DNA of 5,346 nucleotides, from the NCBI GenBank assembly GCA_003243865.1, contig QHBQ01000331.1:1-5346 (forward strand). Direction: 5' to 3'. The notes under the pieces were generated by a model that saw only the letters and a program-made list of their open reading frames with translations, searched no databases and was not told the DNA's origin. Shown here one piece after another: positions 447 through 2,474 of this stretch. The position numbers and the translations under genes are program-made. The stretch's first letter is position 1. Each line of letters opens with the position of its first letter. Source of the DNA: Candidatus Chloroheliales bacterium (lineage in GTDB: Bacteria > Chloroflexota > Chloroflexia > QHBQ01).

Positions 447-462
447 GATGCTGGGTGATTTA

Positions 463-552
463 TACCAATTGGCTATGGTGCTGGTGTAAATCGGATGGGC
501 GCGATAAATCTGCGCCCCTACGGAAACGCACCATCTGCTCGGCTAATTGGTA
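463..552. mobile_element. 90-bp nested palindrome flanked by TTA, MITE-like
   Basis: The ends are TACCAATTGGC (463-473) and GCTAATTGGTA (542-552), which match as inverted repeats at 10 of 11 positions. TTA occurs directly outside both ends (460-462 and 553-555), as a 3-bp target duplication would. Inside, ATGGTGC (475-481) pairs perfectly with GCACCAT (528-534), and GGGCGC (497-502) pairs with GCGCCC (512-517). The whole element could therefore fold into one long, bulged stem. There is no coding capacity, so any movement would need a transposase from elsewhere. It fills the gap between two plus-strand genes and could also act as a terminator or an mRNA-stabilising hairpin. A second copy elsewhere in the genome would be needed to confirm mobility. 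Confidence 0.6.
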
Positions 553-579
553 TTACACCCCTTACGAAAATAGGCAAAA

Positions 580-1437
580 ATGGCACGTAGCTCTTCATTC
601 ACCATTCACCATTCACCATTCACCATTATTATTGACCTGCTCGCCATTGCTGCCATCGTCACGCTCGGCACGTTCATCTATTACGGTAGGCAGGAGCCAG
701 CCGACGCCGCACTGCTGCGGGTGCAGGCCAGCCACACCCTGCGGGTCGGCATGGACCCGACTTACCCGCCGTTCGAGAGCTACGTGAACGGCAAGCTGGT
801 CGGCTACGATGTAGACCTTGCTGGCTTTATCGCAGGCGTAATTGGCCCCGATGTGCAGGTGCAGATTGTGCCGATTGCCAGCGACGCGCTCTACAGCAAG
901 CTGGCCTCAGATAACGTGGAGATGATCATCTCTGCCCTGCCGTTTATCTACGAGCGCAGCGCCGATGTAATCTACACCCGCGCCTACTTCGACGCCGCCC
1001 CGGTGTTGGTGGCACCGACCGGCAGCAGCATCAAGGGCGTGGCTGACCTGGGCGGCAAGCGCGTCGGCGTGGAGCTAGGCAGCCAGGGTGATGAACAGGC
1101 CCGCCGCTACAACCGCGACCATCCCACTGCGCCGCTCACCCTCGTCACCTTTGACCTGCCTACTGATGCGCTTGATGCGCTGGCTGCGGGCAAGCTGGAT
1201 GCTGTCATCGTTGACCCGATCGCCACCGCTGCCTGGCAGGCGCAACACCCCCACCCAGCCTCCCCCGAGATGGGGGAGGGGAATAAGCTGACTACCATTG
1301 CCTCGGTCGGCAGCGTTCCCTACGTCGTGGCGGTCGGCAAGGACAGCAAGCAACTCGCCCGCCTTGCTGACGCCGCCATTGCCCAGGCACAAAGCAGCGG
1401 CGAACTGGAGCGGCTCTCTACTAAGTGGTTTAGATAA
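580..1437 (+). CDS. ABC transporter substrate-binding protein, family 3 (amino-acid type)
   Basis: This is an extracytoplasmic solute-binding protein of the polar amino-acid family (SBP_bac_3), which binds ligand outside the membrane and hands it to an ABC permease. The mature domain opens with LRVGMDPTYPPFESY at about residue 54, then NGKLVGYDVDLA (70-81). ISALPFIYERSADVIYTRAYF (117-137) holds the region of the ligand carboxylate-binding Arg, probably R126. LGSQGDEQA (166-174) matches the ligand-binding loop, and DAVIVDP (207-213) carries the usual second-lobe Asp. It ends with the typical ELERLSTKWFR. Residues 16-36 are one hydrophobic segment without a lipobox Cys, so it is membrane-anchored or cleaved near ADA (41-43). 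The ATG at 580 has a weak AGG five bases upstream. Residues 6-16 are encoded by ATTCACC heptamers, and residues 223-235 by a palindromic insert. No permease or ATPase is nearby, so the substrate is unknown. Confidence 0.88.
   Translation: MARSSSFTIHHSPFTIIIDLLAIAAIVTLGTFIYYGRQEPADAALLRVQASHTLRVGMDPTYPPFESYVNGKLVGYDVDLAGFIAGVIGPDVQVQIVPIASDALYSKLASDNVEMIISALPFIYERSADVIYTRAYFDAAPVLVAPTGSSIKGVADLGGKRVGVELGSQGDEQARRYNRDHPTAPLTLVTFDLPTDALDALAAGKLDAVIVDPIATAAWQAQHPHPASPEMGEGNKLTTIASVGSVPYVVAVGKDSKQLARLADAAIAQAQSSGELERLSTKWFR
597..627 (+). repeat. Tandem ATTCACC heptamers inside the start of the binding-protein gene
   Basis: Four perfect ATTCACC units (597-603, 604-610, 611-617, 618-624) are followed by a partial ATT. 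They encode residues 6 to 16 of the binding protein (S-F-T-I-H-H-S-P-F-T-I), just before the hydrophobic signal segment. Seven is not a multiple of three, so gain or loss of one unit would shift the ATG at 580 out of frame with the rest of the gene. Four units (28 bases) plus the flanking bases are compatible with the current frame. Confidence 0.9.
1246..1284 (+). repeat. C/G-rich palindromic element inserted in frame in the binding-protein gene
   Basis: A run of C-rich CACCC units leads into CCTCCCCC (1259-1266), a five-base loop (1267-1271) and GGGGGAGG (1272-1279), a perfect 8-bp stem. It encodes HPHPASPEMGEGN (223-235), a low-complexity stretch between the conserved DAVIVDP region and the C-terminal lobe, where family members normally have no such segment. 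A clearly related element with the same order (CACCC units, C-rich arm, five-base loop, GGGGGAGGG arm, AAT) lies at 3912-3954 in glgB. Confidence 0.75.
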
Positions 1438-1438
1438 C

Positions 1439-1445
1439 GAGGAGG
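1439..1445 (+). promoter_or_regulatory. Strong ribosome-binding site that decides the DUF2283 start
   Basis: GAGGAGG is a near-perfect anti-16S match and sits directly after the binding-protein stop codon (1435-1437). There is no ATG, GTG or TTG at a useful distance in the DUF2283 frame; the frame has a TAA at 1447-1449, an ATT at 1450 and an ACG at 1453. The ACG lies seven bases downstream, which is ideal spacing, and gives the usual family N-terminus. Confidence 0.75.
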
Positions 1446-1452
1446 ATAAATT

Positions 1453-1680
1453 ACGCGGTTCAGTTACCATCCTGACACCGATGCTCTTTATATCCACCTC
1501 TCAGAGAAGCCCAGCGCGGACTCCGATGAGGTTGCCCCCGGTGTGGTGTTCGACTACGATGCCAATGGCAAGCTGGTGGGGATTGATATAGACCACCTGA
1601 GCGCGGTTGCTGATGTCAGTTCGGCTGAAGGTGTTGCTGCTAGCAGGGCAAAGAATGGCCGTAAGCGGCGCCACTCATAA
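1453..1680 (+). CDS. DUF2283 family protein, 75 aa, apparent ACG start codon
   Basis: Reading from the ACG gives (M)RFSYHPDTDALYIHLSE, then SDEVAPGVVFDYDANGKLVGIDI. This is the DUF2283 pattern: a short beta-rich domain with YDPEADALYI-like and VDYDxxGxxVGIEI-like motifs. After the domain (about residues 1-48) comes an Ala/Ser-rich linker and a basic tail, KNGRKRRHS. The molecular role of the family is not established; members often sit beside small DUF4258 genes, but none is seen here. It follows the binding-protein gene by 15 bases behind a strong Shine-Dalgarno, so the two are probably co-transcribed. Gene finders limited to ATG, GTG and TTG would miss it, because the first in-frame GTG lies within the VVF motif. 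Either ACG is used inefficiently, or a former ATG has mutated and the gene is losing expression, or the base is a sequencing error. The last 127 bp overlap the convergent acetyltransferase gene. Confidence 0.75.
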   Translation, partial: TRFSYHPDTDALYIHLSEKPSADSDEVAPGVVFDYDANGKLVGIDIDHLSAVADVSSAEGVAASRAKNGRKRRHS

Positions 1681-2474
1681 TCCTCGCGGTGAAATTTCTT
1701 GACAAAGCCAATGCTGCGATAGAGATTATACCCCTCATGCGAGGCGAACAGCATCGTGTAGCGGTAGCCACGCGCCCGCGCTTCGAGTAGCGGCGCGAGG
1801 GTAATTGCCTTGCCCAAGCCTTTGCGCCGCGCTGCCGGTATGGTGCTGACATCGTAGATACCAGCCAGGCCCTCTGCCAGCAGCAGGGTGGAGGATGTTA
1901 CCGCTTCGCCATCAAGGTAGCCGACATAGTGATGCCACGCGCCAGTAGGATCGAAGCCGAGGCAAGCGTAAGCGTCGTAGTAGGGGCGGCCAGCGGCCAG
2001 CGTACCCTCGAAGCCAGCGACGGAGGCAACATACCAATCGTATAGCGTCGCCTCATCGTTCACGCGCACGATGAGGAAGTTAGGCGGGGTGCTGGTGTTC
2101 TCATCCAGTGCGTGCAGGTCGGCAACCATTGCCGGTTCGCCGCCGACGTGCCTCAGCCCGGCGGCCAACAGGTAGTCGGCAAGGTTGGGCGGCTGGCTGT
2201 TGGGGAAGACCTCCCACCACGCACTCCCCGCTCCTTTCGCGCTCATATCAGCCACAATCTCCGCTATCTTAGCTTCGACACGCTCTGGGGCAAGGCGGGC
2301 GCGAAAGATAGAGTTGCCCGGCGCACTGTTGGCGACGAACCACATTGCTTCGTCATCCTCTTGCATCACGATGCGTGGCAAGCAGGTGAAACTCGCAAAG
2401 TAGGCGCGGAAGTTGGCCTCGATGGCCTCGGCCATCGCTTCATCGTTGGCAAATGCTGTGACGATTTGGCTCAA
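1554..2474 (-). CDS. GNAT-family N-acetyltransferase, 306 aa, TTG start
   Basis: The C-terminal half is a GNAT domain that would transfer an acetyl group from acetyl-CoA to an amine. Residues 182-199 (HYVGYLDGEAVTSSTLLL) form the central strands. GIYDVSTIPAARRKGLGKA (205-223) is motif A with the R-x-x-G-x-G acyl-CoA loop (R216, G219, G221). HEGYNLYRSIGFVKKF (246-261) is the usual C-terminal motif. Residues 1-125 may be a divergent second GNAT-like half. The substrate is unknown. The TTG at 2472-2474 is chosen because GGGAG (2482-2486) lies seven bases upstream; the nearby ATG at 2481 is in another frame and meets a stop quickly. The gene follows glgB by 27 bases and probably shares its transcript. 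The fold should end near residue 270. The remaining Ala/Ser/Thr-rich tail is antisense to the DUF2283 gene and may be an extension gained by stop loss. Confidence 0.85.
   Translation of the reverse strand: MSQIVTAFANDEAMAEAIEANFRAYFASFTCLPRIVMQEDDEAMWFVANSAPGNSIFRARLAPERVEAKIAEIVADMSAKGAGSAWWEVFPNSQPPNLADYLLAAGLRHVGGEPAMVADLHALDENTSTPPNFLIVRVNDEATLYDWYVASVAGFEGTLAAGRPYYDAYACLGFDPTGAWHHYVGYLDGEAVTSSTLLLAEGLAGIYDVSTIPAARRKGLGKAITLAPLLEARARGYRYTMLFASHEGYNLYRSIGFVKKFHREDYEWRRLRPFFALLAATPSAELTSATALRWSISIPTSLPLAS

Follow-up and report, generated by a model that had tools for sequence, protein, structure and literature searches.

A DUF2283 gene with ACG at the initiator position and without the partner gene of its relatives in Chloroflexota

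The window, i.e., the whole stretch of 5,346 nucleotides analyzed here, contains a complete DUF2283 gene in which ACG occupies the position of the family's initiator methionine. Probably, though by no means certainly, it is the orphaned second gene of a toxin-antitoxin-like module whose start has been naturally weakened or lost, with weak or no translation from ATT or ACG. As judged from the sequence, the start change looks recent on an evolutionary scale, since the coding frame is still marked by purifying selection. The ACG alone is a case of ordinary start-codon decay, and the pair formed by DUF2283 and its partner gene is of greater interest.

Results

The DUF2283 reading frame (1453..1680, forward strand) comprises 75 codons plus the stop codon TAA at 1678-1680 and is open from the ACG onward, with no stop inside. 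Its product matches Pfam family PF10049 with an E value of 1.2e-18 and 67.4 bits, residues 3-50 covering positions 2-49 of the 49-position profile. This score lies above the curated cutoff of 23 bits across the domain, so that the complete DUF2283 protein claimed for this frame in a preliminary description is borne out. Some sources name DUF2283 relatives YuzE, the B. subtilis name. Five strands and a C-terminal helix are predicted for the protein (mean pLDDT, 81.7). Among solved structures, no relative was found by sequence (best E value, 0.58) and none of the 353 matches by fold reached an E value of ≤0.001; NCBIfam and PADLOC hold no family for the DUF2283 protein or its partner.

The leader contains the Shine-Dalgarno sequence GAGGAGG (1439..1445, forward strand; AAGGAGG at the equivalent place in the nearest relative, L099), which is separated from the ACG (1453..1455, forward strand) by a spacer of seven bases (1446-1452), exactly as had been described. 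The hexamer AGGAGG occurs once in the window, both strands counted, namely in this leader, while shuffling expects 2.37 copies; by itself it is unremarkable in rarity, and what matters is its position ahead of a complete domain. The ACG also stands where the family has its methionine: in an alignment of 27 homologues, hand-picked among the 120 matches listed of 157, this column holds Met in 24 and Val in two, while the remaining homologue has a gap there. One of the 24, P0109, has a 12-residue extension ahead of its Met. The 88-aa L099 product (P0241, for which the protein database lists 3 contigs) is clearly related and does not appear among those 120 of 157 matches, so that absence there means little.

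The preliminary description had taken the in-frame TAA (1447..1449, forward strand) to exclude an upstream start. This TAA is present and in frame, but it is followed, again in frame, by ATT (1450..1452, forward strand), a possible weak start 4 bases past GGAGG. The expectation that gene callers would miss the gene proved wrong as well, since the protein database entry P0001 (76 aa, MTRFSYHPD...), which lies on a contig of 5,346 bases and counts two member sequences there, is the DUF2283 frame read from this ATT. Between 1431 and 1480, ATG, GTG, and TTG are absent from all forward frames, which rules out a nearby start in a shifted frame. The first such codon downstream in frame is GTG 1543, and it was rejected as the true start because it would cost three of the five predicted strands. 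There was no sign of a special RNA structure at the start (z-scores of -0.21 for the window and 0.38 for L099). A promoter scan of the forward strand (window 1200-1760 and L099 7600-8300) returned no promoter-like site and gave no support to TGGTATAAT, which had been spotted by eye ahead of the L099 and L167 modules (L167 being a second DUF2283 copy in the genome of L099).

Relatives of the locus were sought with the protein encoded directly upstream, a family-3 extracellular solute-binding protein (580..1437, forward strand; PF00497, E value of 2.8e-25), in 400 genomes of the phylum and then in 158 genomes of the class of the best match, scoring just the best few candidates per genome. One close relative was found, contig C44 of the Chloroflexota genome G454 (L099), whose binding protein is an 80% identical orthologue. 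The eight nearest binding-protein relatives are P0122-P0129 (68-83% identity), of which P0125 belongs to L099, and the comparison covers the contig of P0125 alone. A GlgB-anchored scan, which served as the route to Chloroflexota genomes, gave at least 80 loci with a best identity of 60% among the matches listed.

The leader of L099 reads AAGGAGGATAGATT-ATG-CGGTTCAG and that of the window GAGGAGGATAAATT-ACG-CGGTTCAG, with a single-base difference inside the start codon. By this one close relative together with the family, the ACG is shown to be derived from ATG, and ATT 1450, which in L099 also directly precedes the start codon, is on the same comparison an inherited spacer. In the class, DUF2283 was detected (E value of ≤1e-6) at 82 places in 52 of the 158 genomes, and no match was interrupted by a stop. 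At 79 of these places (G341:C78, at a contig end, G490:C313, and G301:C427 being left out), the codon at the Met position, as placed by the profile match, was counted: ATG at 46, GTG at 7, TTG at 5, another codon at 21, and ACG at none. Between -15 and +3 codons, all but one of the 21 offer an in-frame ATG, GTG, or TTG; the one without, L126 (G474:C168:3168-3299), carries CTG and has a close homologue with ATG in G475. In the phylum sample, which shares G329, G353, and G395 with the class survey, the 22 copies of the module start with ATG (18) or GTG (4), again never with ACG. L099 and the two surveys rule out ACG as a conserved family trait; a weak start is not conserved among the relatives. 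The preliminary description had left a natural non-AUG start, a recent start-codon loss, and a base error as options and had proposed to compare the same locus in close relatives. Conserved natural use of ACG finds no support in this comparison, and the recent loss or weakening of the start is favored.

Past its start, the DUF2283 frame shows no sign of decay and, by its substitution pattern, is under purifying selection. Codons 2-57 of the window and L099 differ by 30.0 synonymous changes on 37.3 sites and 16.0 nonsynonymous changes on 130.7 sites; by codon position, these changes number 12, 4, and 30. Polarized by L167 over codons 2-43, which is rough because L167 is a paralogue, 6 synonymous and 3 nonsynonymous changes fall on the window branch and 11 and 4 on the L099 branch, while 8 could be assigned to neither. 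Neither stops nor the relaxed constraint of a pseudogene was thus observed. The value of pS is 0.80 for DUF2283, 0.51 for the binding protein, and 0.42 for a 94-aa open reading frame (ORF), the latter two having pN values of 0.12 and 0.09. DUF2283 is at least as diverged as its neighbors, possibly more, which might reflect gene conversion or a paralogue swap. The family score of the window copy is the highest of the three (53.7 bits for L099 and 39.6 bits for L167).

The stop codon of the binding-protein gene (TAA, 1435-1437) abuts the DUF2283 leader and lies 12 bases from the ATT and 15 bases from the ACG, with the strong Shine-Dalgarno sequence in between. In blastn comparisons, window 632-1437 aligns with L099 6879-7717, and window 1437-1595 aligns with L099 7959-8117, so that the match ends at the stops of both binding-protein genes (window 1437, L099 7717). 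At this junction (1437..1438, forward strand), 241 bases of L099 (7718-7958), which contain a broken partner gene, are missing from the window, and a search of the window for a partner remnant gave nothing beyond chance (best E value, 0.95). Inspected by eye, the L099 partner has its start in a different frame from its body, and the body contains an in-frame TGA. L167 is likewise partner-less: only a stretch like the first codons of the partner precedes it, and its DUF2283 matches just profile positions 2-43 and appears shortened inside.

The open piece of the L099 partner, which has no family match at an E value of ≤1, was found at 7 places in the class, L099 included (E value of ≤0.001). Internal stops are present in G353 and G438 and absent in G329 and G482, and the copies of G395 and G479 appear by eye to change frame. 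With the intact G329 partner, 25 places in 23 of the 400 phylum genomes were recovered (E value of ≤1e-6), which represent 24 genes because two places are pieces of one gene in G297. DUF2283 adjoins 22 of the 24, the distance to the end of the partner match being -1 to 42 bases; the exceptions are the gene of G228 and the second gene of G393. Three of the 25 places have internal stops (G353, G393, and G228) and the G297 gene is split, but most are open. By these frames, intact partners are common in the phylum sample and partner loss is not the rule. On this evidence, the partner and DUF2283 form a conserved pair in which the first gene is in some cases disrupted, and the window is without such a pair, since the partner is absent.

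The partner is a protein of ~76 aa with a weak likeness to DUF4258 (PF14076), and the G329 copy, with an E value of 0.03 and 15.1 bits, falls below the curated cutoff of 25 bits. In the class, a DUF4258 match (E value of ≤0.001, one match being below the cutoff and one having an internal stop) lies just ahead of DUF2283 at 22 of the 82 DUF2283 places, i.e., at 22 of the 79 DUF4258 places. The 5.2-Mb genome G454 alone has five DUF2283 and nine DUF4258 places.

Discussion

In the explanation that we prefer, the DUF2283 gene of the window would be the surviving second, antitoxin-like gene of a two-gene, toxin-antitoxin-like module. The stretch that bears the partner in L099 is missing, so the gene now stands directly behind an unrelated solute-binding-protein gene, and the change from ATG to ACG may have come before or after the loss of the partner. 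Where the pair is intact, DUF2283 lies within a few bases of the partner, an arrangement suggestive of translational coupling. In the window, a strong Shine-Dalgarno sequence and ribosomes terminating 12 to 15 bases upstream might still yield a little protein from AUU 1450 or ACG 1453; the output would be far below that of an AUG start, or zero. The window protein is like other small DUF2283 (PF10049) proteins in its complete domain, with five strands and a C-terminal helix predicted, but differs in having ACG rather than ATG, GTG, or TTG at the Met position and in the absence of the partner gene.

A toxin-antitoxin role of the pair is supported by analogy, short of proof, because DUF4258 is listed among the RelE/ParE-superfamily toxin families of type II modules (PMC11980606) and one DUF4258 gene of Synechocystis is paired with a HicB-type gene (PMC4963859). 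Like the DUF4258 genes, the partner adjoins a small second gene, but its score is below the curated cutoff; moreover, the antitoxin comes first in the modules tabulated in PMC11980606, whereas the partner comes first in the Chloroflexota pair. A wider proposal, which we hold to be unlikely in its full extent, regards the partner and DUF2283 as a toxin-antitoxin-like module of Chloroflexota that has so far gone undescribed. Frame breaks, stops, or deletion of the whole gene would at times destroy the partner, purifying selection would preserve DUF2283, and the window copy would have been re-coupled to a foreign gene and would now be weakly initiated from AUU or ACG.

The gene could be dead, a remnant of a decaying module with zero translation. 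This sub-case of the preferred explanation is rather doubtful: the partner stretch is gone, the start codon is lost, and the second partner-less copy, L167, appears shortened inside, but the window frame has no stops, is constrained on its own branch, and has the highest family score of the three copies. The purifying selection seen on the window branch speaks against an old loss and would allow the ATT or ACG to be in real use. It would also suit a weak start that is itself selected, with a low-level product made from AUU 1450 (or ACG 1453) and coupled to the end of the binding-protein gene. Bacteria are known to use AUU as a weak start, e.g., in infC (cited in PMC9845219) and cvfC1 (PMC13009471), and AUU or AUA behind an extended Shine-Dalgarno sequence gave about 10% of AUG expression in Staphylococcus aureus, in poor medium (PMC13009471). 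The strong Shine-Dalgarno sequence, the in-frame ATT implied by the database prediction P0001, and the intact, constrained protein resemble this situation. The window gene shares the strong Shine-Dalgarno sequence and weak start with infC and with cvfC1 and ccpN of S. aureus, and the small size of its product with cvfC1; the starts of cvfC1 and ccpN, however, are described as conserved (PMC13009471), whereas the nearest relative of the window has ATG, ACG is absent from the family surveys, and the ATT is an inherited spacer. Among 61,358 ancestral AUG starts, 363 changed to GUG, 113 to UUG, 2 to CUG, and 1 to AUU, and the main text of that study makes no mention of ACG (PMC5622118). Such rarity is more in keeping with weakened selection, or with an error, than with a tuned start, and we regard a selected weak start as the least probable of these readings.

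A base or assembly error at 1454, with an ordinary start codon in the organism, is improbable to a slightly lesser degree. The single-base difference from L099 within the start codon and a frame otherwise free of decay are what such an error would leave behind. A random error, however, would have had to strike one of three bases, and the contig shows no obvious errors, because the ORFs for the binding protein, GlgB, and the 94-aa product stay open for as long as relatives or Pfam domains predict.

Taken together, the loci place stages of a two-gene module falling apart in one series, from a broken partner in L099 to a missing partner, an altered start, and a still constrained protein in the window. 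Unless initiation is shown at the ACG, this codon is of modest interest. The work also points to the conserved partner-DUF2283 pair, whose function is directly testable; full-text searches for DUF2283 and COG5428 gave no paper in the literature collection covered.

Further features of the locus

A phage or plasmid origin was dismissed: of 39 plasmid records, the 20 listed match solely in the GlgB gene, and so does the one phage record. The 3' end of DUF2283 shares 127 bases (window 1554-1680) with a GNAT-type ORF of the minus strand (1554-2474), and the genes downstream are unlike those of L099. A dispersed repeat at window 462-553 recurs in L099 at 8303-8393 (84% identity), and 25 bases are matched exactly at L099 10449. 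Relative to L099, the window has an insertion at 27-136 with inverted heptamer-type repeats. It sits where the upstream gene stops, and the product of that gene ends in ALH instead of ALGR. Tandem heptamer-like repeats (window 590-630, L099 6840-6875) encode the N terminus of the binding protein; at the matching place, their units are of the TTCACCA type in one of the two relatives and of the CTCAAAA type in the other.
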